DNA of 64,000 bases from Chloropicon primus (taxonomy: Eukaryota; Chlorophyta; Chloropicophyceae; Chloropicales; Chloropicaceae), in assembly GCA_023205875.1 (NCBI GenBank), contig CP060763.1, positions 372,001-436,000 on the forward strand, given 5' to 3'. The notes beneath the pieces were generated by a model that was given only the letters and a program-made list of their open reading frames with translations, did no database searches and was not told the DNA's origin. The position numbers and the translations under genes were made by a program. This document shows positions 2,309 to 56,404 of the stretch, piece after piece (the stretch's first letter is position 1; every line of letters starts with the position of its first letter).

Positions 2309-2359
2309 CGATAGTACGTCTCACGGGCTTTCCGTCGATACCTTGGTCGACCCGAGTGG
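2309..2359 (+). promoter_or_regulatory. Composite promoter element, copy 1 upstream of CWC21-like gene
   Basis: CGATAG, then ACGTCTCACGGGCTTTC, then an 18-base spacer ending GTCGA, then CCCGAGTGG. It shares fixed spacing with the other sites in this window. Confidence 0.7.
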
Positions 2360-2490
2360 CGTCCTGAGTGATCGAGAACACTGGAACGAACGAACGAGTG
2401 TGCTGGATCTCGTGAAGCAAGCGAGGGAGGAGGAACACACTTTTGTGGAGGACGAGGGCGAGGGAAGGAGGGGAGGAGGGCGACGGGTGT

Positions 2491-2541
2491 CGATAGAACG
2501 TCTCACGGGCTTTCCGTCGATACCTTACTCGACCCGCTTCG
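2491..2541 (+). promoter_or_regulatory. Composite promoter element, copy 2 upstream of CWC21-like gene
   Basis: Same block as 182 bp to the left: CGATAG, ACGTCTCACGGGCTTTC, an 18-base spacer ending CTCGA. It lies about 185 bp before the ATG at 2726. Confidence 0.72.
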
Positions 2542-2725
2542 ACGGGAAGAAGTGTTTGGTTTGCTGGTGTTATTGATCGATTCACCAGGTTGTGCTTGCG
2601 CTGCTGTTGAGGGAGGAGACCTCTGATTGGAAGGAAGGGACGAGAGGAAAGGGGAGGTGTCCTTGTGCGCGTGCCGATTCGATTGGTTGGTTGATTGATC
2701 GATTGATACATCGGTGCAGGCGGCG

Positions 2726-3562: not shown

Positions 3563-3642
3563 CAACGTGGATCCTTTTGTTTAAAGCAAGTTTTGAAGAA
3601 CAAGTTTCGTGCACACTCCGGAGACGCTTTTCACCTCGTGGG

Positions 3643-4439: not shown

Positions 4440-4616
4440 CCGGCCGCCGAGCGAAAATTGCCCAATTTTTGAAACGGCAGAGCCGTTACTCTGGGGAGGG
4501 GGGGTGGGATCAAGTGTCCGATGTCCATGGTTGGATGTGTTGTCTTCGCCCGTTGGTGAGGCAAGGCCACACGCGAATTAAATGTATTGCACACGGTTTT
4601 CTTTTTAATTTTAATC

Positions 4617-7073: not shown

Positions 7074-7627
7074 AACCCTCTTCCACACCTCCTCACTCCT
7101 CAGGAGTCCAACCGACGAACCAAAACACGTTTCAGTCTCGCAAATCTTCACCACCGAGTCGTTTCCTTCCGCAGAGGGCTCGAGAGAAAGAGCGGGACGT
7201 GACTGTTTCGCTCGTGATCGCGTTCGAACCCCTCCTCTCCCTCCTCGCTCGCCGTGGCTGTCCCTTTCAAACCACCTCTCCTTATCCGCTACAGCGATTC
7301 TGCGGTCGGTGGTCTCCAACTCGAGAGAGAGAGAGCGAGGATCTGATGGATGGATAGGATCGAGGTTCCAAGGACTTGCCGCTTTGATTGATGATGGAGT
7401 GGAGGATGAGACTGGACCTCTTCATGGGCTTTGGTTCGGGTGAACTCAAGCCCGCCCCGCCCCCCACTAAACCAGACAAAAAAACCTTTGATGAAACAAA
7501 ACTCTGTGTTGTGCCGTGCCACGAGCGAGGACGCGGAAGCAGGGAAAGCCCCTGGAAGGGGGGAGGGGCGGCTTGCGGTGAGGAAAAAATAGGAATAATT
7601 AGATGCACATGCGTAGGATTCACTTCT
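7074..7627. other. Intergenic region upstream of FtsH11
   Basis: It holds the FtsH11 promoter element near 7160-7203, a GA-repeat near 7325, and the 3' flank of the transporter gene. No nucleotide-binding domain exon for the neighbouring transporter is present. Confidence 0.55.
7160..7203 (-). promoter_or_regulatory. FTSH11: Composite promoter element upstream of FtsH11
   Basis: In gene orientation: ACGTCCCGCTCTTTC, an 18-base spacer ending GCGGA, then AGGAAACGA. It lies about 90-130 bp before the ATG. Confidence 0.55.
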
Positions 7628-8683: not shown

Positions 8684-9138
8684 CCCGTCAACTCCTCGCT
8701 CCTCCCACGCGCATTAACATCCCTCCCGACACATGCTTGCTCCGAGGCGCCATGGCGAGGATCCTCCCCATCATCTCAGCCGTTACGAAAAGCCACCGAG
8801 CGTTACCGAGCGTTTCGTTTTTCCACATATCGGAGAAGAACGACGACGACGAGCGGCGAAGGCGAAGGGAAGAAGGTGAGGAGAGAGAGAGAGAGAGAGA
8901 CGCGCGAGCGAGGGGGGAGGTTCACGGGCGCAACGAACCCGAGGCCTCTTCCCGACCTTTCGAAAGAGCCCGAACTCGAAGAGAGTGGCGAGAGTTTTGA
9001 GGAACTGAAAGAGCAAAGTCTTCGTTTTCGTGGTTTGCTCTTCACGCTGCCAAAGCCGGAGCGTCGGTGGCTGAGAGAGAAAGTGCGTCTTCGTTGTTTT
9101 ACTCTTTTTTGTTCGGAGGGAAGGGAACGGCCTGCGCG
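8684..9138. other. Divergent promoter region (transporter / small ubiquitin-fold gene)
   Basis: It contains a GA-repeat at about 8878-8900 and one plus-oriented composite element. No gene is seen. Confidence 0.5.
8941..8988 (+). promoter_or_regulatory. Composite promoter element
   Basis: CTCTTCCCGACCTTTC, an 18-base spacer ending CTCGA, then AGAGAGTGG. It is about 150 bp before the ATG at 9139. Confidence 0.6.
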
Positions 9139-9411: not shown

Positions 9412-9456
<45 letters not shown>

Positions 9457-10380: not shown

Positions 10381-10720
10381 ATGGTGGTTCTCATGGGACG
10401 GGAGGGCCTTACCTCGTCATGCCGGACACATCCTCATCCTCAGCTTCAAGGAACATCTTCCGTTTCCGCAAGGAGGAAGGAAACCAGCAACGGAAGGACG
10501 AGGACGAGGAAGCGCAGCCACCCACGTGTCGTCATCGTGTCTGCAGGGAGTTCCATCAAACCTTCGAGGTCTTCCCAAATGAAAGCGACGGACTTCTTGA
10601 GGACGCACTTGAAAACTTTGGCGCCTTACACGCCCATCGAGCCCTTTGAGGTCCTCTCGCAGAAACTTGGAAGGTAAAGCCACACGAAACCAACAACGAT
10701 GAACTTGTCTTCGATTCACA

Positions 10721-10779
<59 letters not shown>

Positions 10780-12819: not shown

Positions 12820-13378
12820 GTCACCACGTCGTTCTCAGCTTCACAATCGACCCTGGCGATTCTCCCCTCCCCTACTTGCAGCCATAACCCTCTGAGCACC
12901 CTATCACTTCACCCCTTGTGCTCCTGCCCAAAGTCAACAAACCTTCCACAAAGGAAGCGAACCCAAGCAATGCTTACACGGATGGAGAGATCGAGAGACG
13001 ATCTATCGTTTGACGCTGCCTCTCCTTTCCCTCGATGCCTCCACGAACCTCAAACCCTCTTCGGTTGTTGTTTGTTTGTTCCCCTTCCCTTCCCCTGGAG
13101 GCGAAGTCCCCTCACAGTCACAGAAGGGCGCGCGCGAAGTCTGCGACGAGACAAGCGGATGTGAGAGACGAACGTGGAGGAAGAGGAGGAAGGGGACTAA
13201 ACCTATCGAAAGTACGTCTCACGATCTTTCGATCGAGCGGTCGCTTGCCCGGTTTGGCGTCGAGGAAGGGAGCGAGAAGCGAGGTGGAGTTGGATTGAAT
13301 CGAAGGACGGGCGAGGAGCACGTGCATCGCAGAGGAGGAGGAGAGGTCTTTTCCTCGGTCGCTGGTGGTCACGGCTCC
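12820..13378. other. Divergent promoter region (METTL18 / RWP-RK-SET)
   Basis: It contains one clear composite element at 13207-13257. A reading frame is open across it from 13010 but starts upstream of the element, so it is treated as 5' flank. A degenerate GACGATCTATCG at about 12998 may be a relic element. Confidence 0.5.
13207..13257 (+). promoter_or_regulatory. Composite promoter element (best match) upstream of RWP-RK/SET gene
   Basis: CGAAAG, TACGTCTCACGAT, CTTTCG dyad, then an 18-base spacer ending CTTGC, then CCGGTTTGG. It is about 125-170 bp before the ATG at 13379. Confidence 0.75.
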
Positions 13379-15184
13379 ATGGCATGCCGTGTCATGAGGA
13401 GAAGTGCGAGGTGTGATCGCCCTCGACATCGTCATCCTGTGGAGTCGAGCGAGGCCAAGGACGGGTTTGGGTTTCCTGAGGAGGACTCCAGGGAATGGGA
13501 ACAGAGGGGGATGGCGGAAGCAGACCTTCTTCTTTCTTCCTCAATGCCCTTGGCCAGCTGTGGGATTGTCCAGCAGGAGTGGAGGGTTTCCGAAGATGAG
13601 ACGAGGGGGTTCGTGAGCGTGGCGGGTACGAAGAGTGGGATGGACGAGGGGGAACAGAGGCAGGACGTGGTTCATCCGTACCACCCACAGCCTGTGCCGC
13701 TGCCAGAATCTTCTCCTGTGCTGGTGGGAGCATGCGGCGAGGCTGTCCAGAGAATCGTTCATGTGCCGCCATCAGCGTCATCACCCGCGCCAGTTTCGAA
13801 CGGGGTTGAGGGTTTGGCAGCGCAGAGAGGGGCAAGGAATAAGACGCTGCCTGCGAAGTTTTTGGACGACGAATGGTCCTCTGGAATACAAGGCAAGACC
13901 GATCGTCCTTGTCCAAAGAAGGAGGGCAAGCTTCCTCCAAGTTATCGAAAGCGGTCCAAGAAAACTGCCCAAGCGAAGGCGAAGAAGACGAAGAAGTTAT
14001 CTCAGCTTACCAGAACCCAATCGCCGATAGGGAAGCGGACGCGGCGGTCGAAGAAGTATACTCGAGAGTCGATAAGTTACGAGTGCCTGAGAGCTTTGTT
14101 CAAGTACCCACTGGAGAGGGCGGCCAAGGAGCTGAACGTCTGTGGAAGGACATTGAGAAGGCGTTGCAAGGATTTTGGGATCGAGAAGTGGCCATACTTT
14201 CAAGTTGCTTCGCGCAAGAGCGTGCTGGAGAGCTTGGCCAGGGAGGCAGCGGGTACAAGCGGAAAGGACACTGACCCTGGTACCTTGGTCACTCTCAGGA
14301 AGTCTGCAGCGGAGAGGAAGCCGTCCTCATCGAAGCGGAAAAGTGCTGCAAAGAAGAAGGTGGGGGCAGAGAAGGGGGCCAAGCAAGCTTTGACAGGCAA
14401 CAAGAAGAAGGTTCTTCGCATCAAACAAGCGACGTGCCGCGGAGAATGCATCGATCTGATGCAGAAGGTTGATGGCCAGCTGATGCAAAAGAAGCAGAAG
14501 AAAAATCTGCTAGAGGAGAAAAAATTGCAGGAAGCAGAAGCGCGGAGAAAGGTGGAGGACGACAGAGTCCAAAAGAACATCGAGGGGATCCTCTGCTCAC
14601 GACTCGAGCCATGGAACAAGGACTGGAAGAATTTGTATTACAACAGAAACTTCCATGTCACGAAAACCAAGATGGCGAAGAGGACTCGAAATGAATGCAG
14701 CGTGGCACCAGAAGAGAAGGTTATGGCGAAGAAGAGCAGAAGGAGCGAAGCGATGGTTCTCAACGACATGGTCAAGATCGGCAAGAGTCCTGTGCACGCT
14801 TGGGGCCTCTTTGCCTCGCGGACCATCAAGGAAGGAACAAAAATCATCGAGTACGTCGGTGAACTCACTCGGGCCTCCTTGGCTGACAAGAGGGAGAATT
14901 TCTACGAAAGGAATGGGATGGACTCGACCTACATGTTTCGAGTCGGTAAGAATCTCATCGATGCGACGCTCAGGGGCGGGCCAGCCAGGTACATCAACCA
15001 CAGCTGCGACCCGAACTGCAGGCCGAGGGAGCTCACGAAGGAGAACAAGATCGTCTTGTTCTCCATCAAAGACATCCAACCGGGGCAGGAGCTCTTCTAC
15101 GATTATAAATTCGACTTTGAGGAGCTGGGCAAGAAGACCCCGTGCCACTGCGGAGCTCCCAACTGCCGGGGGTGGATGAACTAA
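13379..15184 (+). CDS. RWP-RK domain fused to SET histone methyltransferase domain
   Basis: 601 residues from the ATG at 13379, intronless. An N-terminal disordered region is followed at about residues 222-280 by an RWP-RK-type DNA-binding module: a basic run, then ISYECLRALFKYPLERAA, KELNVCGRTLRRRCKDFG and IEKWPYFQV (the usual RWPxRK reads KWPYFQ). A basic coiled-coil linker leads to a SET1/KMT2-like SET domain at about 459-585 (VHAWGLFA, IIEYVGELTR, STYMFRVG, RYINHSCDPNC, LFYDYKF) and a post-SET CxCxxxxC motif (CHCGAPNCRGWMN). RWP-RK proteins regulate nitrogen response and gamete fate in green plants; KMT2 enzymes methylate H3K4. The fusion suggests a sequence-directed methyltransferase. 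Confidence 0.85.
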   Translation: MACRVMRRSARCDRPRHRHPVESSEAKDGFGFPEEDSREWEQRGMAEADLLLSSSMPLASCGIVQQEWRVSEDETRGFVSVAGTKSGMDEGEQRQDVVHPYHPQPVPLPESSPVLVGACGEAVQRIVHVPPSASSPAPVSNGVEGLAAQRGARNKTLPAKFLDDEWSSGIQGKTDRPCPKKEGKLPPSYRKRSKKTAQAKAKKTKKLSQLTRTQSPIGKRTRRSKKYTRESISYECLRALFKYPLERAAKELNVCGRTLRRRCKDFGIEKWPYFQVASRKSVLESLAREAAGTSGKDTDPGTLVTLRKSAAERKPSSSKRKSAAKKKVGAEKGAKQALTGNKKKVLRIKQATCRGECIDLMQKVDGQLMQKKQKKNLLEEKKLQEAEARRKVEDDRVQKNIEGILCSRLEPWNKDWKNLYYNRNFHVTKTKMAKRTRNECSVAPEEKVMAKKSRRSEAMVLNDMVKIGKSPVHAWGLFASRTIKEGTKIIEYVGELTRASLADKRENFYERNGMDSTYMFRVGKNLIDATLRGGPARYINHSCDPNCRPRELTKENKIVLFSIKDIQPGQELFYDYKFDFEELGKKTPCHCGAPNCRGWMN

Positions 15185-22149: not shown

Positions 22150-23016
22150 CGTCTTCCGACTCTCTCCCTCGATCGCAAGCAGCAGCGCAGAACGATGAAG
22201 AAGGAGAAGGAGAAGATCGAGGATCGAAGGCGATGAACCCAGGAGGCCCACGATTGGGCCGATCCAGCGCAGTGCCCAAGCAATGCACTCACCTCGCGAG
22301 GGACGAAGACAATGCATGCACGGATGCATGGATGCGTGAATGGATGGATGGAAGGAAGGAAGGAAGGAAGGAAAGGGAATGCAGGGGGGGAAGGGAATCG
22401 AGGAGAGTATCCCGATCCGACGCCAAGACACAAAATTGTTCCGCGCTCCTCCACGAAGCTCCTCGTCCCGCCATCTCAGTCGTACACCGATACTACGCTC
22501 TTTCCACGACGTTACCGTAAGTAAGAGTGGTTTAATGTTATTGATGTATTAATGTTATACATAGAAGATGTTGTAATGAGTGTACAGATCTTATCCACTG
22601 ACGAGGACGAAGATCACACAACAGAACAGATCCTCGTTCGACGAGGGCGAAGGACGAGGGAGGGAGAAAGCGACGGCCTTGTTGGAAAACGAGGTCGTTC
22701 CGAAGGTGGGGACGAGTGTTGACGGGAATCTTTGTCTCGCGCTCTTTCCAACGAGCCCTCGCTTGAGGTTTTTGGACCGAAACTCGGAACTCGGGAGAAC
22801 ACGGAGCAAGGGACATCGTCATCGTCGTCGTCATCGTCGTCGTCGTCGGTGCCAAGTGGAGCGGAGGCCTCGCGGCTCGTCTTCGGGGGTTTCTTTCTCT
22901 GGCGAACTGCCTCCCCTCTCGACGCCAGCAACAGCAAGGCTTGCTGGTGCCCAAGGAGGGAGTGAGCGTGACCCCCTCGCTGCGAACGATACCAACCCTG
23001 ATCCCTGCTCTGCTGC
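22150..23016. other. Divergent promoter region with microsatellites and one element
   Basis: It holds GATG/GGAA repeats (about 22320-22375), a CGT/CAT-type trinucleotide run (about 22815-22850), and a plus-oriented composite element near 22730. No gene is seen. Confidence 0.6.
22728..22775 (+). promoter_or_regulatory. Composite promoter element upstream of SSU-like gene
   Basis: TTTGTCTCGCGCTCTTTC, an 18-base spacer ending CTTGA, then GGTTTTTGG. It is about 240-290 bp before the ATG at 23017. Confidence 0.65.
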
Positions 23017-26974: not shown

Positions 26975-27091
26975 ACATACGCCACGAGAGATTCCCGTGT
27001 TGTCACCAACCACAGTACTGATCTCGCCCACACGCGCTTGACTTCCGAGTTCTGATGGGATCGGGTATTTTCACGTAGGTATGAACGTATG
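26975..27091 (-). rRNA. rrn5: 5S ribosomal RNA
   Basis: The minus strand from 27091 reads CATACGTTCATACCTACGTG, then AAAATACCCGATCCCATCAG, AACTCGGAAGTCAAGCGCG, and on to GATCAGTACTG, GGTTGGTGACAACACGGGAA and CGTATG. This matches the eukaryotic 5S layout, including the A-box/C-box internal control region. The two ends pair (CATACG with CGTATG) to form helix I, giving about 117 nt. A T10 run follows immediately. It is a single copy within this window. Confidence 0.93.
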
Positions 27092-27115
27092 ATGAAAGAG
27101 GGAGAGAGTGTGGCC

Positions 27116-27123: not shown

Positions 27124-27459
27124 CCTCTCGCCTCTCGCCGCCTTCCTCCCGGTCTCGTCTCGTTCCCCTCCTCGTCCAGCACCCGCCCGAGGGAACGCAA
27201 AGTCGAGTGAGTGGAGCATCCATCGCGAAAGGGAAAGGCCTTGAGGCAAGACTTTGGGTATGCCCGACCCTTTCCTCGATCCTGCGCCCCCTCCCCTCCC
27301 CTCTCGTCGTCCATCCTCGCCTTTCGATCGCCTTTTCGATTTTTTTGGGCTAGCTAGTTAGCTGGAGGGGGACGACGAGAAGGAAACCCAGGACGAGCTT
27401 TGAAACTTTGGATCTTGGCGGCTTTGAGGACGTCCCCGGCTCGAGATTAGCACTTGGAT

Positions 27460-27511
27460 CGAAAGTGCGTCTCTCGAGCTTTCGTTTGAGCCCTTACTCG
27501 ACGAGTTTGAC
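27460..27511 (+). promoter_or_regulatory. Composite promoter element upstream of LisH gene
   Basis: CGAAAG, TGCGTCTCTCGAG, CTTTCG, an 18-base spacer ending CTCGA, then CGAGTTTGACC. It is about 185-235 bp before the ATG at 27695. Confidence 0.75.
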
Positions 27512-27694
27512 CCCCGGGGTGTTCGATTAAAACTCGCGCCAAGGAGGAGCAAGCGACGGAGAGGGAGGGAGAGGGGAGCATTGCGGACGAGGCGGAGGTC
27601 GAGGTCGAGGTGTGGAGGGGAAGAGAGGAAGGCAGGACGAGGTCTTGACTCGTGGTCTTTCGGTTTCTCGCTTGCTCGAGGCAGCGTGCTCGTG

Positions 27695-28883: not shown

Positions 28884-28973
28884 GTTCCCCCGGCGACCAC
28901 TTCTATGTAGTGCATACGAAGCCATAGCCAAACACCCAGATATGTTCCTCTTCAAAGGGACCACTCCTCTTTG

Positions 28974-29017
28974 CCAAAACCTTCCACCGAGGTATCAATC
29001 GAAAGCCCGTGAGATGC
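28974..29017 (-). promoter_or_regulatory. Composite element facing away from cactin
   Basis: On the minus strand: CATCTCACGGGCTTTC, an 18-base spacer ending GTGGA, then AGGTTTTGG. It lies between the LisH stop (28883) and cactin start (29145) but points left, the only site in this window not oriented to a downstream start codon. Confidence 0.6.
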
Positions 29018-29144
29018 CCTTCCGCTTGTTCAACACCTCGTTCCCATCCCCTTCACCGACCTTGCACAAGGCTCTCAACAAACACCACCCCACCCTCCAC
29101 CTTGAGGCGCCCCCCTCCATCGCCATCGTGTCATTGAGGAGGCC

Positions 29145-35351: not shown

Positions 35352-35406
35352 GAACGAGTTATCCGTCAACCAAAGTATCGACGGAAAGCTCGTGAGACGT
35401 AGCTTC
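35352..35406 (-). promoter_or_regulatory. TTC27: Composite promoter element upstream of TTC27
   Basis: In gene orientation: TACGTCTCACGAGCTTTC, an 18-base spacer ending GTTGA, then CGGATAACT. Confidence 0.72.
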
Positions 35407-35629
35407 GTGTGGCACCCTTTCCTCCCCTCGCCTCCCCTCGCCTCCCCTCGACCCTCTCGCCGCTCGACAAAGTTCGAGTCCGTGTCCGTCAGGTGGACAG
35501 CCGCAATCCAACTATTAAGTCTGCTGGGGACTGGAGCCTGGAGAGCCTGGAGGAGGTGAAGGTGAGTGACGAGGGACAGGAGGGAGATGAGGTCGAGGGA
35601 GAGGATGGAGAACACGCCGATGCCATCTT

Positions 35630-35675
35630 CGCATCAAGATCTTTCTCTCGAGCTCTCTCTCGAGAGGAATGACGT
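35630..35675 (+). promoter_or_regulatory. Composite promoter element, distal copy upstream of NDUFAF8-like gene
   Basis: GATCTTTC, an 18-base spacer ending CTCGA, then GAGGAATGACG. The last 16 bases (CTCGAGAGGAATGACG) are identical to the element upstream of the ankyrin-type gene at 52.2 kb. Confidence 0.6.
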
Positions 35676-35804
35676 TCTGTGGAGGTTTTGAGACGAGATC
35701 ACTCGTTTGGCTCTTCCTTTTGCTGATTGCCATTAGGATTGTTGTACAGGTTTGGTCAGCGAGAGGGAGGGACAGGAGGAAGGGGGAGGAGGAGGAAGGC
35801 ACAG

Positions 35805-35855
35805 AACGTAATCTTGGCTCAAGGGCTTTCGATTGACGAGAGCATCGGTCGTTAA
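35805..35855 (+). promoter_or_regulatory. Composite promoter element, proximal copy upstream of NDUFAF8-like gene
   Basis: ACGTAATCTTGGCTCAAGGG then CTTTC, an 18-base spacer ending ATCGG. It lies about 95-140 bp before the ATG at 35947. Confidence 0.6.
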
Positions 35856-35946
35856 GCTCACTGGTTCGGGTCTCCTTGTGTTCGACACAGATATAGAGGT
35901 TGAGATATTGAGGTTGGGATTGAGGTTGGGATTGAGGAGACAAGGT

Positions 35947-37505: not shown

Positions 37506-37602
37506 CCTTGGCGCTTGACCGGTGCTCCAAATCAATCCAAATCAATCCAAATCAATCCGGAGGAGGATGTCAATCTTGGTGCTCGTCGTTCTCAAACCAG
37601 AA

Positions 37603-37648
37603 CCAAATCCTTCGAGCGACGGCTCTTTCGAAAGATCACGACACACTC
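37603..37648 (-). promoter_or_regulatory. Composite promoter element, proximal copy upstream of PsbP-like gene
   Basis: In gene orientation: GTGTGTCGTGATCTTTC, an 18-base spacer ending CTCGA, then AGGATTTGG. Confidence 0.68.
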
Positions 37649-37910
37649 CTTCCCCTGGTGTCCCACACCTCGCCCTCAAGTCCCTCTCCCGACTCCAATC
37701 GTCTCCCGAACCCCTCGCCGTCCCCTCCTCCTCCTCTCCCCTCTCTCCACTTCGCCTTCCACAGAATCCTCACCAGATCACCTCTACCTTCAAGCGACGG
37801 CTCTTTCGAAAGATCACGACACACTCCTTCCCCTGGTGTCCCACACCTCGCCCTCAAGTCCCTCTCCCGACTCCAATCGTCTCCCGAACCCCTCGCTCCT
37901 CGTCCCCTCC
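37612..37910. repeat. Tandem duplication, offset 178 bp
   Basis: About 105-120 bp starting at the GCGACGGCTCTTTCG core and running through CCCCTGGTGTCCCACACC to CCCGAACCCCTCG is near-perfectly repeated (left copy from about 37615, right copy from about 37793). The near identity in noncoding DNA implies a recent event. Confidence 0.9.
37782..37827 (-). promoter_or_regulatory. Composite promoter element, distal copy upstream of PsbP-like gene
   Basis: Duplicate of the proximal element, displaced 178 bp; the spacer ends CTTGA here. Confidence 0.65.
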
Positions 37911-40804: not shown

Positions 40805-40920
40805 CCCGTCGGGTCCTTGGCCCCTGCTCTTCACTGAACTGACCAACCCTGTTCTACACCACCCCTCTCATATTCTCGTCACTTTTGCCCCTAACAAACG
40901 TTTCCAATGCACTCCGGGAC

Positions 40921-40973
40921 GTCAAGCGGTCAACCGATACGCCATTCGAAAGATCGTGACACGTACTTTCGTT
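40921..40973 (-). promoter_or_regulatory. Composite promoter element upstream of GT29-like gene
   Basis: In gene orientation: CGAAAG, TACGTGTCACGAT, CTTTCG dyad, an 18-base spacer ending GTTGA, then CCGCTTGAC. This is among the closest to consensus. Confidence 0.75.
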
Positions 40974-41206
40974 CAGTGTGATCCACTCCTCCTTGCCTTG
41001 TCTTTGTCTTCCTCAACTTGTCCAGTGAAGTGCACCCTCTCCCCCTTTGCTCCGCTTCATGCGTGGACAAACTGTCCATGGGATGAAAGCACAGAGAGAG
41101 AGAGAGAGAGAGAGGCGGGGAGGGGCGAGGTCCATCGGAGTTCTCTGCCGTCGTGAGGTGACGACGACGAGGAGGGAGAGAGGAAGGACTGAAGGGGTCG
41201 AGAAAA

Positions 41207-41265
41207 CGAAACTGCGTCTCTTGACCTTTCGAACGACACCGGCCTCTGCACCGAACGGGTTTGGT
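41207..41265 (+). promoter_or_regulatory. RPB4: Composite promoter element upstream of RPB4
   Basis: CGAAACTGCGTCTCTTGAC, CTTTCG, then GAACGACACC; the downstream TTTGG block is present but about 7 bp further away than usual. Confidence 0.6.
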
Positions 41266-44412: not shown

Positions 44413-44797
44413 GCTCACTTCCGCTTCGGGTTCGCCCGACGTTGCGACAATAAGAACAACGCTCGTTTCACCAAGTCCGAGGGACGGAACGACACAAAAC
44501 GAGAGATCCGCCACGAGATGGTGGTGGACAGACGCTTGTCTCCTCACCGACCTTCGCGTTTCACGCCAACCCCCACACGCTCCTCTCCTCTCCTCTCCTC
44601 TCCTCTTCTGGTCCTTGGTGTTCGTCCGGTCGCCTCCGAGGTCAATCCGGCACCAAATCCTTCCACCGAGGGGTCTCCTGAAAGCTCTCGAGATGAACAA
44701 GCCTCCTGCACCCCTCCCCTCTCGCCCCTCTCTCTCCTCGTCTCCCTATCGCAACCCAAACCTCCGTTGCTCCTCTGCTAAGGGATGGCGGGAAAAG
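44413..44797. other. Divergent upstream region with one element
   Basis: It contains the minus-oriented element near 44653-44700 and a CTCCT-type repeat at about 44580-44606. Confidence 0.5.
44653..44700 (-). promoter_or_regulatory. Composite promoter element upstream of unknown gene at 43.6-44.4 kb
   Basis: In gene orientation: TTCATCTCGAGAGCTTTC, an 18-base spacer ending GTGGA, then AGGATTTGG. The block CCTCGGTGGAAGG is shared with the element at 28974. Confidence 0.68.
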
Positions 44798-46989: not shown

Positions 46990-47250
46990 TGTCGTCGTTC
47001 GCTTTCGTTCGTTTCCTCTCTCTCTCTCTCTCCAACGGCTGTCGTCCTCCCTGGGTCCTGCCCTACCCTCTCAAGTGTCCTCCTCCCCTACTCCTCCCCC
47101 TCGCCTTGAAGCCAACCTCACTTCACACCAACGATAAACGATACACCTCCAACCACCTCGTGGAGTCCTCCCCCTCGTCCTGCTGCACCAAAACGGTATC
47201 CCCTCCACTGGCTCAGTCGTCCAGTGGTCCTCCTCCTCACACACACTTTG

Positions 47251-47457
47251 GGTACCACTGGGTTGCCTCAACTTGTGTCGTCTTGTGTCGCGTTATGTTA
47301 TGTTATGTTATGTTGTGTCGTCTTGCGTTGTGTTGACCACAACCACACACTCGCACACAAACCTCTTGCCTCTACCACTGGTCACTGGGTACCACTGGGT
47401 TGCCTCAACTTGTGTCGTCTTGTGTCGCGTTATGTTATGTTATGTTATGTTGTGTTG
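47251..47457. repeat. Direct repeat, offset 137 bp, with TGTTA minisatellite
   Basis: GGTACCACTGGGTTGCCTCA followed by ACTTGTGTCGTCTTGTGTCG and a GTTAT run occurs at 47251 and again at 47388. Confidence 0.9.
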
Positions 47458-47689
47458 TGTGTTGTGTTTGTTCCCCTCTTCTGTCTCTGCTGTCCCCTCT
47501 CTCTTCTGTCGTCGTGACCAATTGAAATCATCAAGACGACAGGACTATACGATATGGAAGTTCAAGACACGCTACATCAACGGAATGGTGGATAATGAGT
47601 GTACATATTGTGTACACCCAAGATGAGACCTTGGAACCTTGAACGCTGACGAGAGCTGAGCTGAGGAGAGCTGAGCAGAGGAGAAGGAG

Positions 47690-48062
47690 AGCAAGAGGAG
47701 GAGGAGAGGTCTTGGTGGAGGGAGAGATACCCTAGCCCTAGGACCCCCTGGGATTCACCTCTCTACTTTCAGAATCAGTCAACACACACACGCACGCACA
47801 CACACACACACACAATAACTGCTTGCTTCTGCTGCTGCTCCAGCAACCTTGGAACAGCTGGAGAGGGACAGCTGAGAGGAGGAGGAGAGGTCTTGGTGGA
47901 GGTAGAGATACCCTAGCCCTAGGACCCCCTGGGATTCACCTCTCTACTTTCAGAATCAGTCAACACACACACGCACGCACACACACACACACACAATAAC
48001 TGCTTGCTTCTGCTGCTGCTCCAGCAACCTTGGAACAGCTGGAGAGGGACAGCTGAGAGGAG
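47690..48062. repeat. Near-perfect two-copy tandem duplication, 181 bp
   Basis: Both copies run from GAGGAGGAGAGGTCTTGGTG through ATACCCTAGCCCTAGGACC, a CACACACGCACGCACA run, GCTTGCTTCTGCTGCTGCTC, to GGAGAGGGACAGCTGAGAGG. The right copy abuts the ATG of RsfS at 48064. Confidence 0.93.
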
Positions 48063-48063
48063 G

Positions 48064-48582
48064 ATGGCGCTCCTCGCTGCGTTGGGGACGGTGAGGAGGG
48101 CTGTGACGAGACAAGGAGGCGTTGCCAGTGAGTTGGCGAGGAGGTTGTCCACCGGGACTGGCCCAGAAGATGGGATTCCTGCGGGCTGCAGGGGAGGTCC
48201 TCCAGGGACCGTCCCTGACAGCCAGGCCCTGTCATCCGTCGTGGACGACGTGGTGGACCTCATCCAGCGAGCCAGGGGGAAGGACATCGCAGTGGTGGAT
48301 CTGGCGAACGCAAACGCGCTGTGCAACTCCTTCATCATCGCCACCGGGACGTCCAGGGACCACCTAGGAAGGATCACAGGCGGTTGCCAGTACCTCTTGA
48401 AGGAGCGGGGCTACACCTCGCGTCTCGAGGAGGGAGAGGAGTGGTATCTCCTCGACGGAGGGTCTTTGATCGTGCACGCCTTCTCCAGGGGTGCTCGAAA
48501 CTACTACGACTTGGAAGGCCTGCACGCCAACGCGGACAGCTCGAACGTTCGCCACATCCCCAACCTCGAAGAACTGGATTGA
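48064..48582 (+). CDS. RSFS: Ribosome silencing factor RsfS / iojap, organellar
   Basis: 172 residues, intronless. The N-terminus MALLAALGTVRRAVTRQ followed by ASELARRLSTGT is a mitochondrial-type presequence. The RsfS domain spans about residues 60-160: DLIQRARGKDIAVVDLANAN, LCNSFIIATGTSRDHLGRIT, GEEWYLLDGGSLIVHAFSRG, RNYYDLEGLHANAD. RsfS binds uL14 and prevents subunit joining; the mitochondrial form (MALSU1) serves in large-subunit assembly. Confidence 0.92.
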   Translation: MALLAALGTVRRAVTRQGGVASELARRLSTGTGPEDGIPAGCRGGPPGTVPDSQALSSVVDDVVDLIQRARGKDIAVVDLANANALCNSFIIATGTSRDHLGRITGGCQYLLKERGYTSRLEEGEEWYLLDGGSLIVHAFSRGARNYYDLEGLHANADSSNVRHIPNLEELD

Positions 48583-48625
48583 AGTGAAGATACACAATAA
48601 TATATTATTGAAGTACATTGGAGAG

Positions 48626-51600
48626 TTAATACATTTTTTCGAGGCTGGCCGTGTCCTTCTCCTTCCGCACCACGTCCTTTGCGTCTACCATGTCGTACGC
48701 GGCGGTGTGGGGCTGGGCGACGAGGAGGACGGTGGAGGACAGCCCGCTCAGGAGTTCGATGAGCCGCTTCACCCCCTCGTCGTCGAGGCTGTGCATGACC
48801 TCGTCCAAGACCATCAAATTCGACCTTATCCCTGACCGCAGGGAAGCCAAGGATGAAAAGCCGAGCGCCAGAGCGAGTCCCAGGCGCCCCCTCTCCCCGC
48901 CGGACAGCTGACTCAGGCTCCTCTCCACGAACTTTCCCGACGCGTTCCGAACCAAAACCTTCTTCTCTATGCTCTCTATCTGCTTCTCCTGTTTCGTGGT
49001 CCTGGTGGAGTTCAGCTGCAGCTGCAACGAGTTGGAGCTCAAGATCTCTAGGTTTTTGTTCGTCCTGCCTTGCAGCTGCTTCAGGGCCCCCTCGATCACG
49101 TAACTTTGCACGCCCGTAGTGGAGAACGCGGCGTCCACGGATTTCAAAGTCTCCACAGATTTCCTGAGCTCAGCGACAGCTCTTTCCCTCTGCTCAAGAG
49201 CTTCCTTCTCCGACTGCACCTTAAGGGCCGCCTCGGCACTTTGGCCTCGGTAAGGATTCTCCTGCCTCCTCAAGACCTTCGCCTGCTCTCTGAGAGCTTG
49301 GAGCTCGTTGTGGTGATGCTGATCTTGTAGAGCCGATGCCGCTTTCCCCGCGAGCTCGTTCTGCAAACGCGTTAGGGAGGCCTTCTCCCCCCTTATCGAG
49401 GTTTGCATTTCCCTCTCCGCACTCACTAAGCCCTGCAGCTCCTCCTGCAACGTTTGCTGCCTCTGCATTTTGTCGCCCAAGTCGCCAGCGAGCTCACTCA
49501 AATGCTCAGCAAAGGACGTCGCGTCGATAGGTTGGTCGCAAGTTGGACAGACGCCGTGCTGCTCCGTCCTTAACAAGGCTTCCTTTTTCTTGAGAGTCTC
49601 CTGCAATGTTGCAACTTCGTAAGATGCCAAAGACAAGTCTTTTTCCTTGTTGATCCGCTCGCCCCTTCCGAACGAGAGCTGCTCTTCCCCTGCGCGAACG
49701 GCATCTTCTGCCTCGCTAATCTTCCCCCTTAATTGCTCGATCTCATCCACCAAACTGGCAGAGGAGCTTCCAGAGGCATTGGGCTGCTTTGAAACCAGCG
49801 CTTCCTCTTGGTCTTCAAGCTGACGCTCCAGCTCAAGAATCTTTGAGGCTTGAAAGTTCGTCCACGATTCGACCTGCGATTCCAAGTTCTCCAGGTGCTT
49901 CTCGCTATGGGTCAAGACTCTTTTGCAGATTTCCTCCTCCGAAGCCGCGGAAGAAAACTTGTCTTTCGCCTCCCTCAGCTTTCCCTTGGCTTGCTTCGAG
50001 GCTTCTTCCCAATGAGAGAGAGAGGGCGCGATCAAAGCGAATTGCTCCTTCAGCTTTTTGTCGGTGCTAAAGAGCAATGAGTTGATGTTTTCCGCGTCGA
50101 TCATCATCATCTCGCACAACACGTTGGTGTTGATCGCCTCGTCAATACTCGCCTGGGTGGCCTTGGAATCTAATTGCGTTTTCGAGACGCCCCCGAGGCG
50201 GAACGACAGGTTCTTCAGAGATCGGGGCGTGATGGAGCGCTCGATCTCGAACTCCTCGTTGTTAAGAGATCCTCGTAGAACCACAGTAGCCACCTTGGAG
50301 GAATCATTCACCACATCTCTGTTCGTCAGAGACCGCTTCTTCCTGGACGGGTCTCCCTTGAGTTCTGTTTTCCCCGTCAGAGCCCAGATGGCAGCCATCA
50401 AGAGACTTGTCTTCCCAGCTCCATTGGACGTTGCGCCGTCGCTGTCGACGTTCTCCCCGCTGATTATCCGGAGATTGGGCGGGCCCTCGATGTCATAACA
50501 GACTCGGTCACGGAAAGGGCCGTAACCTTGGAGCTCCACGGACCGGAGACGAATGTCACTGCTTCGGGTCTCCATGTTTTGCGCCTCCATCTCTGCCATG
50601 ATGGATTGGCACAACGACCGAGTCTCGGGCGAGAGCGACGAGTGATCGGCATACGCCTGAAAGATCCCATCCGCATTCATGTCGTCCGCGTTCTCGATTC
50701 GGACGGTCTCCTTCTCGACCCTGGGCTGCAGATCCAGAGAGGAGACCCCCAGGCCCCTCAGTGCCTCTGAAAGCCTCTCCGTTTCTTCCTCCCTGACGTT
50801 CTTCACGCGCACGCGGTCTCCGGCTCTGACGGCATCGAAAATCGTCGCGTCGTGCAAGGCCGTGGCGGAAGCATCGAATGTGAAGTGCCGGGGCCCCAAA
50901 TCCACCTCGACGTCCCCCTTGATACTCCAATCACTGCCATCGAGAATCTTCACGGACTTGCGCTGATTCGATTCGCCAAAGCTAACCTGGTACTGGCTGC
51001 CGACGTAGTGGATTCTGCCTTCGATCGAGTGCGGCCTGTGATAGTGGCCCGTGTAGACAGGAATCGTGGAAGGGAACGCGGATGGGTGAATTCCTTGAGC
51101 CGACTGAAATTGCTCGTTGAAATCCGCGCCGATGATATCCACGTGGCAGAAGATCGCCTTTGGCTGCTTCCCCCCACCCCCGCTCCCACCGCCGTCGTTT
51201 GGGGAAACCTTCATGAGCTCTTCCTCGATCTCCTCCTTCCTCTGACGGTAAGGCAGCCACAGGGCGCCCATGAAGTAGCTAGGCTTGTCGATCACGATCA
51301 CGTTGCTGCAAGCTTTTGCGATTGGCTCCAACGAGTGGACCACCCCGCCTCGATCCACCTGGTCATGATTCCCCGGGATCATCACAGTAGGCTGCTTCCA
51401 GTCCTCCGCAAAAAGCTTAAGCACCTTGTTCAAAGGTTCCACGGGGAGCGAGCCTCTCAAGTGAAAGAAGTCGCCCAAGAAGATCACCCCCGCTCCTCTT
51501 CCTTTTGCTAAAACGTTGACAAAGTTGAGAACATCCATGCAGGTATCCTGAGTCTGCCTCGACACGTGGAGGTCGGAGAAAACGACCCACTCCTTCACAG

Positions 51601-51775
51601 ACCGGTGCCCTCCCGCCGCATCCCCTACCTCGCTGCCGATCCGCAACGCGTAGTTCCTTCTCCAACAACGGTGGCGAGGAAAGGGCCCAAACCTTGCACA
51701 AAGTCCTCGTCCCTGCACCGGGACTGCAGACCTTCTCAAGAGCGATGCTGCCCTCGTCAACCTCAGACGCTCCAT
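48626..51775 (-). CDS. Single-chain SbcD-SbcC (Mre11-Rad50-like) nuclease-ATPase, organelle-targeted
   Basis: 1049 residues, intronless, from the ATG at 51775. The Arg-rich N-terminus (MERLRLTRAASLLRRSAV) looks like an organelle presequence. Residues about 60-330 are an SbcD/Mre11 phosphoesterase with motifs FSDLHVSRQ, FLGDFFHLRG, MIPGNHDQ, FCHVDIIGADFN and YTGHYHRPH. From about 410 an SbcC/Rad50 ATPase follows: LQGYGPFRD, Walker A NGAGKTSLLM (about 450), a coiled coil with zinc-hook GVCPTCDQP (about 742), signature LSQLSGGERGRLGLALALG (about 955) and Walker B LMVLDEVMHSLDDEG (about 988). The complex trims DNA ends and hairpins. In bacteria, phage T4 and eukaryotes the two subunits are separate proteins. 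Confidence 0.9.
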   Translation of the reverse strand: MERLRLTRAASLLRRSAVPVQGRGLCARFGPFPRHRCWRRNYALRIGSEVGDAAGGHRSVKEWVVFSDLHVSRQTQDTCMDVLNFVNVLAKGRGAGVIFLGDFFHLRGSLPVEPLNKVLKLFAEDWKQPTVMIPGNHDQVDRGGVVHSLEPIAKACSNVIVIDKPSYFMGALWLPYRQRKEEIEEELMKVSPNDGGGSGGGGKQPKAIFCHVDIIGADFNEQFQSAQGIHPSAFPSTIPVYTGHYHRPHSIEGRIHYVGSQYQVSFGESNQRKSVKILDGSDWSIKGDVEVDLGPRHFTFDASATALHDATIFDAVRAGDRVRVKNVREEETERLSEALRGLGVSSLDLQPRVEKETVRIENADDMNADGIFQAYADHSSLSPETRSLCQSIMAEMEAQNMETRSSDIRLRSVELQGYGPFRDRVCYDIEGPPNLRIISGENVDSDGATSNGAGKTSLLMAAIWALTGKTELKGDPSRKKRSLTNRDVVNDSSKVATVVLRGSLNNEEFEIERSITPRSLKNLSFRLGGVSKTQLDSKATQASIDEAINTNVLCEMMMIDAENINSLLFSTDKKLKEQFALIAPSLSHWEEASKQAKGKLREAKDKFSSAASEEEICKRVLTHSEKHLENLESQVESWTNFQASKILELERQLEDQEEALVSKQPNASGSSSASLVDEIEQLRGKISEAEDAVRAGEEQLSFGRGERINKEKDLSLASYEVATLQETLKKKEALLRTEQHGVCPTCDQPIDATSFAEHLSELAGDLGDKMQRQQTLQEELQGLVSAEREMQTSIRGEKASLTRLQNELAGKAASALQDQHHHNELQALREQAKVLRRQENPYRGQSAEAALKVQSEKEALEQRERAVAELRKSVETLKSVDAAFSTTGVQSYVIEGALKQLQGRTNKNLEILSSNSLQLQLNSTRTTKQEKQIESIEKKVLVRNASGKFVERSLSQLSGGERGRLGLALALGFSSLASLRSGIRSNLMVLDEVMHSLDDEGVKRLIELLSGLSSTVLLVAQPHTAAYDMVDAKDVVRKEKDTASLEKMY

Positions 51776-51939
51776 CACGCCACAACCTCGATCCCCTATC
51801 GACCAATTCTTCCCCTCCCCCCTCACCACCACCCGTGAGGCCGCGCCGCGCCGTCCTCTGCAACCATGAACACGCAAGCTCAACCAAAACTGATCCTGGG
51901 AAGAGATCCACGTTTCAGTCCACAAAATCTTCAACACCG

Positions 51940-51985
51940 CGCCATTCCCTTCAAGCGGCCATCATTCGATAGATCGTGCGACGAT
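51940..51985 (-). promoter_or_regulatory. Composite promoter element upstream of SbcD-SbcC gene
   Basis: In gene orientation: ATCGTCGCACGATCTATC, then a 17-18 base spacer ending CTTGA, then AGGGAATGG. Confidence 0.6.
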
Positions 51986-52203
51986 CCTTCCAGCCTCGAT
52001 CGCCCCTTCCCCCGCCTCTCTTCCTCGGCCTCGTCGTCCACGTCGTCGTCGTCGTCGTCGTCGTCGTGACCACCGTCGTTCTCGAGTCCTCCCTTATTAA
52101 CGCCCGGGTTCATCGCCAACAAGGGAGAGGGAAGGTGTTATCGTCGAAGGACTTTGTGCGAGGACGCCGGGCCCAAGGGGTGCGAGGACGTGGGCCCAGG
52201 GGG

Positions 52204-52252
52204 TGCGTCTGCTCGCTAGCTTTCGATCGAAACCTTCCTCGAGAGGAATGAC
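52204..52252 (+). promoter_or_regulatory. Composite promoter element close to ankyrin-type gene start
   Basis: GCGTCTGCTCGCTAGCTTTC, an 18-base spacer ending CTCGA, then GAGGAATGACG. It ends only about 7 bp before the ATG at 52259, so the transcript would have a very short leader unless a later ATG (52280) is used. Confidence 0.62.
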
Positions 52253-52258
52253 GCCGGG

Positions 52259-53650: not shown

Positions 53651-53678
53651 GAATCAAAAACGTAAGAATACAATGCAG

Positions 53679-55670
53679 TCATCTCTTGCTGAGTCTATAC
53701 TTGATTTTGTTTCTCCAACGCCTTCCAAAGGACATCAGTTTTCCCCTGCCGGGCTGCGTGTGCTCCACCCGAACATCGCCGCACTCGGCTAAAACTTCGA
53801 CCCTCTTTTGTAGCATTTGTAGCAGGTTGAGCTCATCACCCTTGCAGTACCTTTGGAGCGACGACAAGTCATTCCTCACGTCGCCAAGGTAAACCTTCAT
53901 GAGGGTTTTTATCTCAGGCCCGACCGAGCCTGCGAGAAACTCAAGGTCGTTCACCACCTCGGCGGCAACCCTAACAGTGTCCTTGAGACAAAGAATTCCA
54001 TCCTTGTAGCAAAGGGTTGCGGCGCCGATGTAAGTCTTGTACGGGAAGATCTTCCTCGTCCCCATGTTCGTGGAAGTGGAGGTGGACGGGACCTTGTGGA
54101 TGAAACTCGCTCGGATTCCAGCTTGACCCCCGGACTCATCGCTGAGAACTTTCATTAATTCCAGGTCTCCTTGCCCGGAATCTCCAAAGAGAACCAGTTG
54201 GCACTCGGCGTAGAGCATCATGAACTGCTTGACGGCCTCGGCTTTCTTCAGAGCGATTGGAGACCAGACAGCGCGAGCTGCGTTTCGAGTCTTGAATCGA
54301 TCCATCAAAACTGCGAGAAGGGACTTCAGCCCCGTGTGCAGCCCGCTCTTCAGGTCGCCGCAGAGCACGACGGGCTCCATTCTCAGCAACCCCTTCCTCT
54401 TGAGCGGCCCGGTAAGCATCTTGTAAGAGTAGATCTCGCTCATCCCTTTGTACGACTTTGGCCTCGCTGTCAACAAGACGAGCGAGGCTGAGCTGAAGAA
54501 CTGGCTGAACTCATTGTGTTTCGGGCTGTTCGCTGCTGCGATTTGCTGGAACAAAAAGCAGCAGCCCGGGTACATGACTCGCTTTGGCAGCCGGGCGTCG
54601 ACTCCCGCTGGCCACCTTCCGCCCGAGCAGAGGAGCGTGTCATCTACGTCTGAGATCACCTTTGTCATCGGAACATTCCCCATGAATGTCTGCTCGTCCT
54701 TCCTCTTGAGGCCCTCGGAGTGGAGGTGCCGCATGACCTCCTGCTGCGCGACGCCTCTCAGGTCGTAGAAAACGAGCTTGTGCAGAGAGTGCCAGTCCCC
54801 TCGGGAATCCAAGATAGCCTTCATGACTTCGAGCTCCTTGCCGTGGAAACTCAAGACCAAATTCCTAGCCCAAAGCTGTTTGCTGTTGGATGACACGATG
54901 CCTATCCGTTGCAAGCCGTCCAGCAAGAGCACTTTTGATACCAGCGAAAGCTCTTTGATCCTCCCTCCCTCTCCCAGCAGCATCGAAAAGGTCCCGCGTT
55001 CAGCCACGTACGCCAGCTTCGAGCAGTTGATCATCGACAAGTGGTAATTCAGCTCCTTGGCCGGGCTCGTCTTCAGTATCGAGTGTATCTGCTCCTGCTG
55101 CGGCGTGTGCAGCTTCAGGACGCCGAAAAGCACCATTTTCAAGCCCGCGGCCTTCGTCCCGTAGAGCTTGTCCACGAGGTCCTTGAGGTGGAACGTCCTG
55201 CCTCGGACGAAACCCGACTGAGAGGACAGCTCCTTCAGGCACCGCCTTGCCTCTTGCTTCCTGAGAGCCCACAGGCCGTCCGAGAGCATCTTCAGCGATG
55301 TCACCTGCGAGGTGACGTAGCTCGCCAGGAGATTGAAGGTCTCCGCGACGAGGAGAGCGAACGCCACGGTCATCGGCAGGGTCAGTTGCAGCGCCCCCGC
55401 AGTGCGTGCTCCGGCGTACACGCCGATGAACAGCCAGAACAACTTCTCGTACTCCCGCTTGTGTAGGACCGTCCTCCTCTCCGTCACGAAGTAGAGCGCG
55501 ATGGCAACGACGACGAGGAGATCAACCCTTCGCATCCAGGTGATCAAGACCGTCCCCTGCACCACGACCGCCTCCGCCATGCCTGTGGCATCAATGTAAG
55601 CCTCGAAAACGCCTGTCGCGCTCGGCTCCGCATCTTGCTTCCCGCGAAAGAACGTCGCAAGCCTCTCCAT
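53679..55670 (-). CDS. App1-like HAD phosphatase with N-terminal membrane domain
   Basis: 663 residues, intronless, from the ATG at 55670. Hydrophobic segments lie at about 50-70 and 85-125 (VDLLVVVAIALYFV, LTLPMTVAFALLVAETFNLL). A helical middle part leads to a DUF2183/App1 catalytic domain with VISDVDDTLLCSGG (about residue 342, DxDxT nucleophile motif), VMYPGCCFLFQQI, LVLLTARPKSYKG, and VLFGDSGQGDLELMKVL. Yeast App1 is a phosphatidate phosphatase active at endocytic sites. The membrane-anchored arrangement differs from soluble yeast App1. Confidence 0.85.
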   Translation of the reverse strand: MERLATFFRGKQDAEPSATGVFEAYIDATGMAEAVVVQGTVLITWMRRVDLLVVVAIALYFVTERRTVLHKREYEKLFWLFIGVYAGARTAGALQLTLPMTVAFALLVAETFNLLASYVTSQVTSLKMLSDGLWALRKQEARRCLKELSSQSGFVRGRTFHLKDLVDKLYGTKAAGLKMVLFGVLKLHTPQQEQIHSILKTSPAKELNYHLSMINCSKLAYVAERGTFSMLLGEGGRIKELSLVSKVLLLDGLQRIGIVSSNSKQLWARNLVLSFHGKELEVMKAILDSRGDWHSLHKLVFYDLRGVAQQEVMRHLHSEGLKRKDEQTFMGNVPMTKVISDVDDTLLCSGGRWPAGVDARLPKRVMYPGCCFLFQQIAAANSPKHNEFSQFFSSASLVLLTARPKSYKGMSEIYSYKMLTGPLKRKGLLRMEPVVLCGDLKSGLHTGLKSLLAVLMDRFKTRNAARAVWSPIALKKAEAVKQFMMLYAECQLVLFGDSGQGDLELMKVLSDESGGQAGIRASFIHKVPSTSTSTNMGTRKIFPYKTYIGAATLCYKDGILCLKDTVRVAAEVVNDLEFLAGSVGPEIKTLMKVYLGDVRNDLSSLQRYCKGDELNLLQMLQKRVEVLAECGDVRVEHTQPGRGKLMSFGRRWRNKIKYRLSKR

Positions 55671-56404
55671 CTCCTCTACCTCATCTCTCCCTCGCTCGCG
55701 CAAGTCGACGACCGCCAACAACTCGTGCAATGGCAGTGCCCCTCCAACGGATGGCACACCCCAGCAGGAGGTGTTCCCGACCACTCCGAGGGCCAAACGG
55801 GTCAATTAAACGATCCCCAGAAAGCCCGTGAGACACTCTTTCGTCTCAAAACCCTTAAACTCCCTCCAATCTTCCGTCCTCGTCGCCAAAGCTCACGATT
55901 CCACGGACCTCTGCTCCATACCCTGCTCGGCCGTTATGATTCCAGACCCCGCTAAGGAAGAAGATAAGGTAGGTCATCATGAGTGTACCATACGATAACA
56001 CCGAATCCGAGTTCTGTTTTTTTTTTCGTATTTCCTTAAGCAAAGTCCAAGGGAAAACCTAGGCCCCGCGGCCCGCCTCCCTTCCGCGGTCTCCAGAGAG
56101 AGAGAGCTCACTCCTGGCGGGACCCTTGGCCATCCTTTGCCCAGCACAAGGACGAGGAGCAACAAGGCTAGCAGAACGCAGTTTGGGTCATCCTAATCCT
56201 TTTCTTTTTCTATTTTGGGGGTGGGTTTGAGCCTTTGCCCCCTCAGTCCTCAATTCTTGGGTGACTTGACTTGTTGGAACCGAAAGGACGGAAGCTTTTT
56301 TTGTGCCTCCTTGTGGTTTGGGATTGCATTCTTCTTCTTCTTCTTCTTGTTCTTCTTCGGAACAGCCACCGACTACCCGGTCAGAGGTTTTAGATTGATT
56401 GAGG
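55671..56404. other. Divergent region (App1-like / secreted methyltransferase-like)
   Basis: It contains one minus-oriented composite element and a CTT run (about 56330-56356). No gene is seen. Confidence 0.55.
55792..55843 (-). promoter_or_regulatory. Composite promoter element upstream of App1-like gene
   Basis: In gene orientation: CGAAAG, AGTGTCTCACGGG, CTTTC, an 18-base spacer ending ATTGA, then CCCGTTTGG. A full match to all three blocks. Confidence 0.75.

Follow-up and report, generated by a model that had tools for sequence, protein, structure and literature searches.

The stretch of DNA analysed here, a window of 64,000 nucleotides from the tiny marine green alga Chloropicon primus, raises the question of what kind of signal is repeated between its genes. 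Intergenic sites of strain RCC138 share one rigid composite element of ~55 bp, CGAAAGTR-CGTCTCACGRK-CTTTCG-WTYGANNCNTYNN-TYGANNGN-TTTGR, in which the blocks GAAAG, CGTCTCACG, CTTTCG, WTYGA, TYGA and TTTGG can be distinguished and which weak conservation stretches to ~70 bp. The first-pass annotation had claimed a fixed spacing (a 13-base gap between the two arms, a spacer ending in TYGA and a TTTGG block), and all of these parts indeed lie at fixed offsets, so that the spacing is rigid across ~5 helical turns. Conservation averaged across sites is near background beyond about -14 to +54. An independent pattern made from the right half matched the genome 48 times and its control 0 times, and in 20 newly read sites chosen by the right half alone the unselected left half was found at the same offset. 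In weaker sites of the window, e.g. 22733 and 44695, the offsets of CTTTC, of the TYGA/TGGA block and of TTTGG are still exact. A de novo motif search recovered the element in about half of 30 upstream regions of the window.

We scanned the window with a 55-bp matrix built from 55 non-redundant sites, all outside the window (5 of the original 60 sites were near-copies). Eighteen clear sites scored above 14 bits, and the column-reversed matrix gave none above 8 bits (Table 1). These 18 include 17 of the 19 sites listed previously; the remaining two, at 8941 (7.7 bits) and 7160 (4.2 bits), are weak. In 400,000 positions of C1, 2 matches exceeded 7 bits and 3 exceeded 4 bits (reversed matrix, 0), and because this rate predicts ~0.6 and ~1 matches in the window at the levels of 8941 and 7160, respectively, both are borderline. 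The earlier list lacked one clear site, at 13000 on the minus strand (19.4 bits), and perhaps a second, weak one (27646; 7.8 bits), 178 bp from the site at 27468. The copies at 35804..35858 and 35619..35673 have an identity of 0.44, which is not above that of random element pairs.

Table 1 Composite elements in the window, with their matrix scores and neighbouring genes.
Positions	Strand	Score (bits)	Feature and context	Basis
2306..2360	+	49	composite element; upstream copy of tandem pair (182 bp)	matrix scan, pair offset
2488..2542	+	43	composite element; downstream tandem copy; before cwf21-domain gene at 2726	matrix scan, Pfam
7158..7212	-	4.2	borderline element (~1 expected by chance); near FtsH-like gene	matrix scan, Pfam
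8935..8989	+	7.7	weak element (~0.6 expected)	matrix scan
12957..13011	-	19	composite element (site 13000); before lysine methyltransferase-like gene	matrix scan, Pfam
13204..13258	+	62	composite element, full match; before SET/RWP-RK gene; divergent partner of 13000	matrix scan, Pfam
22722..22776	+	39	composite element (22733); before RuBisCO small-chain-domain gene	matrix scan, Pfam
27457..27511	+	58	composite element (27468), full match	matrix scan
27635..27689	+	7.8	weak element (27646); 178 bp downstream of 27468	matrix scan
28973..29027	-	65	composite element (29016); promoter subfamily with longer homology elsewhere	matrix scan, BLAST
35356..35410	-	45	composite element (35399); before TPR gene	matrix scan, Pfam
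35619..35673	+	19	composite element; divergent partner of 35399	matrix scan
35804..35858	+	16	composite element; 185 bp from 35619..35673 copy	matrix scan
37602..37656	-	39	composite element; tandem pair (178 bp), copy nearer gene side	matrix scan, pair offset
37780..37834	-	32	composite element; second copy in pair with 37602..37656	matrix scan, pair offset
40920..40974	-	46	composite element (40963); before GT29 sialyltransferase gene	matrix scan, Pfam
41204..41258	+	16	composite element; before Rpb4-domain gene; divergent partner of 40963	matrix scan, Pfam
44652..44706	-	30	composite element (44695)	matrix scan
51940..51994	-	24	composite element (51983); before Metallophos + SbcC/Rad50-type ATPase gene	matrix scan, Pfam
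52198..52252	+	26	composite element; before ankyrin gene; divergent partner of 51983	matrix scan, Pfam
55792..55846	-	37	composite element; before APP1-domain gene	matrix scan, Pfam

Across the genome, the exact core was matched 81 times and the backwards pattern 0 times; with up to 2 mismatches the numbers were 678 and, in the reversed control, 59. These counts suggest ~1,000 elements in the genome and, by extrapolation, perhaps one in about every ten promoters. The element prefers one strand relative to genes: in the pattern lists, all nine pairs on opposite strands no more than 1 kb apart faced outward, with divergent copies mostly ~215-300 bp apart. Three divergent outward pairs in the window (35.4/35.6, 40.96/41.2 and 51.98/52.2 kb) are as first described, and 13.0/13.2 kb is a fourth. 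The statement that 18 of 19 sites point toward the nearest start codon was not reproduced as such. Of the 13 window sites that have a called start ahead on their own strand, 11 lie closer to that start than to any on the opposite strand (the exceptions are 2317 and 51983); for 5 window sites no same-strand gene is called within 1.2 kb. At 44 of 73 sites a sense ORF with codon bias and 150 codons or more begins 40-320 bp downstream. The refuting conditions named in the first-pass annotation did not arise as far as they were run: the element shows a strand preference and genome-wide enrichment upstream of genes, and its copies are placed with regard to genes and their orientation, as those of a transposon might not be.

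Start codons follow the element at widely varying distances (47-453 bp, usually 50-300 bp), whose distribution is only weakly two-peaked. TATAWA was found at none of the 73 sites between -120 and +150. Between the element and the start codon there are 15 ATGs where dinucleotide composition predicts 61.6, and the reverse word CAT occurs 55 times against 37.4 expected. The ATG deficit also extends upstream of the element (4 versus 17.7 at -50 to 0); therefore, the transcription start site may lie upstream, or base composition may be partly responsible.

The strand bias, the enrichment upstream of genes, the lack of TATA and the rigid spacing argue for a promoter element with several contact points. 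Probably it is a core-promoter-proximal site, directional and TATA-less, to which a multi-contact factor binds in the linkers between nucleosomes. A single DNA-binding factor with several domains, or else a fixed complex, would read all blocks together, sit in the linker between positioned nucleosomes and help to set a nucleosome-free gap, and it would direct a nearby transcription start, probably just downstream of the element. The same features support in part the first-pass proposal of a multi-contact factor or a TATA-less core promoter. The element is, however, neither a general core promoter nor one on which most promoters of the genome rely: many lack it, and in 93 upstream regions of C1:200-400 kb (part of one gap between elements) no matrix match exceeded 10 bits.

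Composite core promoters of the Inr/MTE/DPE type are found in TATA-less eukaryotic promoters, and the element resembles them in having short blocks at exact spacing, in one orientation, before the start codons of functionally mixed genes; it differs in being longer and stricter, serving a minority of genes, having no TATA and occurring in tandem copies ~180 bp apart. ZYRE of Chlamydomonas, likewise a green-algal promoter-proximal cis-element, is reported as YGACAYGAC, marking zygotic genes without strand bias (PMC4889651); this word occurs in 0 of 93 elements. The words TTYGA and TTTGGCG are similar to those of CHR and E2F sites, but TTTSSCGS is present on the sense strand of only 7 of 93 elements and on the opposite strand of 1, and the genes are not cell-cycle specific, in contrast to those of E2F/CHR sites.

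At the 60 sites 58 ORFs were found; 40 of these were scanned and 26 had a Pfam match, and the genes downstream of the element are functionally mixed. Sialyltransferase and RWP-RK genes among them, together with sialyltransferase and meiosis genes reported as silent (PMC6731263), raised the idea of a life-stage regulon. This found no support, as the downstream ORFs also include glutathione synthase, a DEAD_2 (XPD-type) helicase, Nop53, an RsmB/F-type methyltransferase, a ferredoxin-thioredoxin reductase chain and Rpb4.

Close same-strand pairs have a narrow spacing, 16 of 17 lying at 157-190 bp and the remaining one at 351 bp with a third copy in between. When the 60 loci were rescanned, 19 of 22 same-strand partners lay at 159-186 bp (reversed matrix, 0). 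In 12 of 21 tandem pairs neither flank was above the 95th percentile of random-locus similarity, and in 11 of these 12 the element was likewise not above it. A spacing of ~180 bp kept in pairs whose flanks are at background suggests a nucleosome gauge, in which the copies of a tandem would lie in consecutive linkers, separated by one nucleosome repeat, and might supply backup or alternative start sites. On the other hand, upstream flanks are clearly duplicated in 6 of the 21 pairs, downstream flanks are similar in 3 more, and tandem duplications of ~180-190 bp are also present in intergenic DNA of the window without the element; the gauge could therefore partly reflect a mutational habit. The nucleosome repeat stated for two Chlamydomonas promoters is ~160 bp (PMC6952782), shorter than 180, and the excerpt of PMC12695648, on nucleosome spacing, does not name the genus Chloropicon. 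An element that is very long, rigid, directional and recurrent at about nucleosome length would allow sequence-set nucleosome spacing at promoters to be tested directly.

These duplications, and the near-copies among the 60 sites, would also be expected if short upstream segments had been dispersed between genes as a promoter cassette by duplication or a mobile element, the likeness of the sites reflecting ancestry and not selection. One subfamily does show homology beyond the element, at about -85 to +70 (e.g. 29016 with C1:1025704 and C2:858733 among the BLAST matches listed). However, inner offsets are exact while mean conservation fades outside the element, right-half-selected and weaker sites keep their blocks in place, and all opposite-strand pairs face outward; we regard the cassette as a rather unlikely explanation. 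Less likely still is a site for a general regulatory factor or insulator in the manner of Reb1, Abf1 or CTCF, which would organise chromatin without choosing a start site. The multi-zinc-finger and general-regulatory-factor sites share with the element a long multi-block motif and a suspected nucleosome-scale phasing, and the nucleosome-like spacing of copies and the mixed genes would suit them, but such sites are usually without orientation toward a gene, whereas the element, ~55 bp long and with a putative factor, is not orientation-independent and points toward its gene.

An RNA element of the 5'-UTR is very improbable. The palindromic arms CGAAAG/CTTTCG and the downstream ATG depletion, which suggests a transcribed leader nearby, would favour it, but the six arm pairs form in 51, 74, 88, 60, 79 and 52 of 93 elements, with mismatches such as T facing T (25) and C facing C (24), a count that shows left-arm variation and not full covariation since an intact right arm was the basis for choosing most of the 93. 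With a left arm that is free to vary against the right, the dyad does not behave like an RNA stem. Folding of the alignment gave no structure in the elements and none in shuffled controls either, and so carries no information; no Rfam match was found at the window elements.

Element density falls with chromosome length (rho -0.84); the element is scarce on the largest chromosomes, and six gaps between elements exceed 400 kb. Such a fall would agree with a site for chromosome behaviour, e.g. meiotic recombination, whose number scales with the recombination rate per chromosome, but its orientation to genes would not be expected, and we give this explanation as little credence as the RNA element. 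Gene compactness was rejected as the cause of the absence on C1, where divergent gaps are alike (median 804 in the window versus 751 on C1). No alternative composite motif was found on C1 by a motif search with limited restarts or by a spaced-word count, whose reversed control is symmetric by construction and so has no control value.

Neither the tandem gauge of ~180 bp nor the uneven density at the scale of chromosomes was part of the earlier finding. A wider reading, which we hold only tentatively, would combine a nucleosome gauge, a one-direction factor and two promoter systems, of element-using and element-poor domains, in one nucleus; the former would be the small chromosomes and parts of the large ones, the latter stretches of 0.4-0.7 Mb on the four largest. 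That density depends so steeply on chromosome length suggests a hidden organisation in a genome described as without major GC differences between its chromosomes (PMC6731263), and with the element comes a promoter grammar for an alga of ecological importance. In viral contigs, the core pattern occurs in at least 120 stretches with a top full-matrix score of 20 bits among the matches listed; a viral copy of the element was rejected, since the built-in exact core would account for most of the 20 bits. To our knowledge, little has been described of the core promoters of marine picoalgae. A scrambled pattern used as a chance control gave 51 matches. By eye count, 18 of these hit a word that recurs in one promoter subfamily; among the remaining 33, 10 fell on C1-C4 versus 12.4 expected by length.

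The exact 17-base core of the element occurred 81 times in the genome, whereas its backward-read pattern was not found at all; with up to two mismatches the counts were 678 and 59. Five related patterns gave 59, 48, 41, 87 and 39 genomic matches, against 0 for each backward control. When the window was scanned with the 55-bp weight matrix, 18 sites exceeded 14 bits and the column-reversed matrix gave none above 8 bits; in the comparison stretch C1:200001-400000, on the largest contig, one match exceeded 8 bits and none 10 bits. Because 10 of the 18 window sites fall within two core mismatches, the genome-wide total may be around 1,000 elements, as extrapolated from one element-rich window, compared with 8,627 protein genes.

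Sixty sites were aligned without gaps: 47 exact core matches (among 50 listed, leaving out the window's own match and two tandem partners) and 13 one-mismatch sites among those listed, all on C1 or C2. Columns were conserved over roughly −11 to +43 and more weakly around +49 to +54; upstream of the element, the strand was strongly purine-rich. To guard against circularity, a second set was chosen on the right half only, and 20 sites among its 48 pattern matches were newly read, six of them forming three related tandem or inverted pairs. The left half recurred there at unchanged offset (C at 0, T at 4 and C at 5 each in 17/20, G at 8 in 19/20, A at −6 in 18/20). The fixed-offset architecture that the first-pass annotation described for about 15 intergenic regions is solid. 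The matrix columns resembled each other most when shifted by 12 bases (z 3.4 versus permuted columns, top of 32 lags), a hint of a putative 12-bp repeating contact within the element. The right half CTTTCGAACGAGCCCTCACTCGA is present in seven identical copies on C20, the smallest chromosome, which suggests a local promoter family there.

None of the 18 window sites lies within a called ORF, and codon-biased sense ORFs spanning 150 codons or more begin 47–318 bp downstream at 44 of 73 sites. At 47 sites the start lay 47–453 bp beyond the last element (28 at 47–165, 12 at 225–293), with starts called mechanically, so that introns or short first exons escape. All nine opposite-strand pairs closer than 1 kb in the pattern lists faced outward. 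The divergent, outward-facing arrangement claimed at first reading holds beyond the window, as do genome-wide strand preference and association with genes. Among 14 opposite-strand matrix matches in the 60 fetched loci, five were the element mirrored through its own dyad at an offset of 8 bp; the other nine, with one pair counted twice, were all upstream, outward-facing and 224–301 bp away. Divergent partners in the window are separated by 215–252 bp. By position and direction, association of the element with promoters is well supported, and the geometry would fit a core-promoter role for the element within a nucleosome linker.

ATG was depleted between the element and the start codon (15 observed versus 61.6 expected), whereas CAT was not (55 versus 37.4). 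The deficit was strongest at +50 to +100 (2 versus 25.1) and set in already upstream of the element; from −110 to −15, ATG numbered 10 versus 24.7 expected and CAT 18 versus 7.8. Part of it arises because the calling of starts itself leaves few in-frame ATGs in the sequence ahead of them.

Merging six exact pattern lists gave 293 sites (mismatch-tolerant list left out), among which 17 same-strand pairs were closer than 1 kb, 16 of them spaced 157–190 bp and one 351 bp. Rescanning the 60 loci with the matrix gave 22 same-strand partners across 19 loci, some counted twice since two C19 loci share 435 identical bases; 19 partners, triple arrays included, lay at 159–186 bp and the rest at 231, 252 and 414 bp. 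Upstream flanks were duplicated in 6 of 21 tandem pairs and downstream flanks similar in three. Many arrays look old, with their spacing nevertheless kept, because in 12 of the 21 neither flank exceeded the 95th percentile of likeness among random loci. Such spacing might reflect a nucleosomal gauge. Tandem duplications in non-coding DNA also occur five times in the window, offset by 137–191 bp (178–191 in four of them); the C1 stretch is three times as long and contains two tandem duplications, both within genes, with none found outside called genes in its 200 kb.

The elements are spread unevenly. Across 267 loci, density was 4.5–6.5 per Mb on C1–C3 versus 31–33 per Mb on C19–C20, falling as chromosome length grows (Spearman −0.84, p 4e-6), and C1–C4 together held 45 loci versus 100 expected. 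Six gaps exceeded 400 kb; 0.36 were expected under uniform spread (six reached in 0 of 5,000 simulations) and 2.7 with per-chromosome counts kept (p 0.007). Being defined on exact pattern lists, these gaps are element-poor rather than necessarily empty: among matches listed, one-mismatch sites occur at C4:1149598 and C2:923724, within the C4 gap and one of the C2 gaps respectively, and the first C2 gap contains a promoter-subfamily word (C2:195757). In the partly read gap, C1:200–400 kb gave no matrix match above 10 bits, and a de novo search of its 93 upstream regions for a substitute motif returned purine-rich or incoherent words only. Gene density was 0.47 per kb there versus 0.48 in the window and divergent gap lengths were alike; GC3 was slightly higher (0.81 versus 0.78, p 0.047).

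The window corresponds to C10:372001-436000 in the Chloropicon primus RCC138 assembly, which comprises 20 contigs and 17,584,162 bases, the longest contig having 1,855,637 bases (PMC12301720, Table 1). A word find for "promoter" gave no hit in the searched text of that paper or of the C. primus CCMP1205 genome paper (PMC6731263), and, judged by titles and abstract openings, none of the papers listed for Chloropicon with promoter or cis-regulatory had Chloropicon promoters as its subject. Composite promoter elements as such are already known; one so long, rigid, directional, repeated at ~180 bp and chromosomally uneven had no counterpart that we could match.

We did not adopt a reading of the element as the mark of a putative regulon, because the proteins encoded downstream are functionally mixed, element-less window genes are just as unremarkable (RRP7, TFIIS, topoisomerase I, PurE/K, cactin, kinesin) and GC3 did not separate window genes with the element from those lacking it (p 0.17). 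Repeated-domain proteins with HARE-HTH, a predicted DNA-binding domain, gave 18 domain matches in the genome (C1, C4, C5, C9, C10, C12, C13, C14, C18 and others). At least two of their genes, at loci L043 and L068 outside the window, lie directly downstream of related element copies; these proteins could be candidate binders.

Simple repeats, purine- or CA/CT-rich, are common in intergenic DNA (e.g., 10717–10777 and 58075–58129). The 5S rRNA gene was the sole Rfam match in the window, and the SbcD-SbcC-like fusion is found here in a eukaryote.

Features located in the window
Feature	Position	Strand	Offset	Remarks
Non-coding tandem duplication	905-1282		191 bp	96-100% identity; without matrix match
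RWP-RK and SET domains in one ORF	13544-15184	+		domain matches
Single 5S rRNA gene	26974-27092	-		Rfam match; intergenic, upstream of element at 27468
Non-coding tandem duplication	47249-47455		137 bp	96-100% identity; without matrix match
Non-coding tandem duplication	47680-48064		180 bp	96-100% identity; without matrix match
SbcD-SbcC-like fusion ORF	48626-51937	-		metallophosphatase domain, then SbcC/Rad50-type ATPase parts
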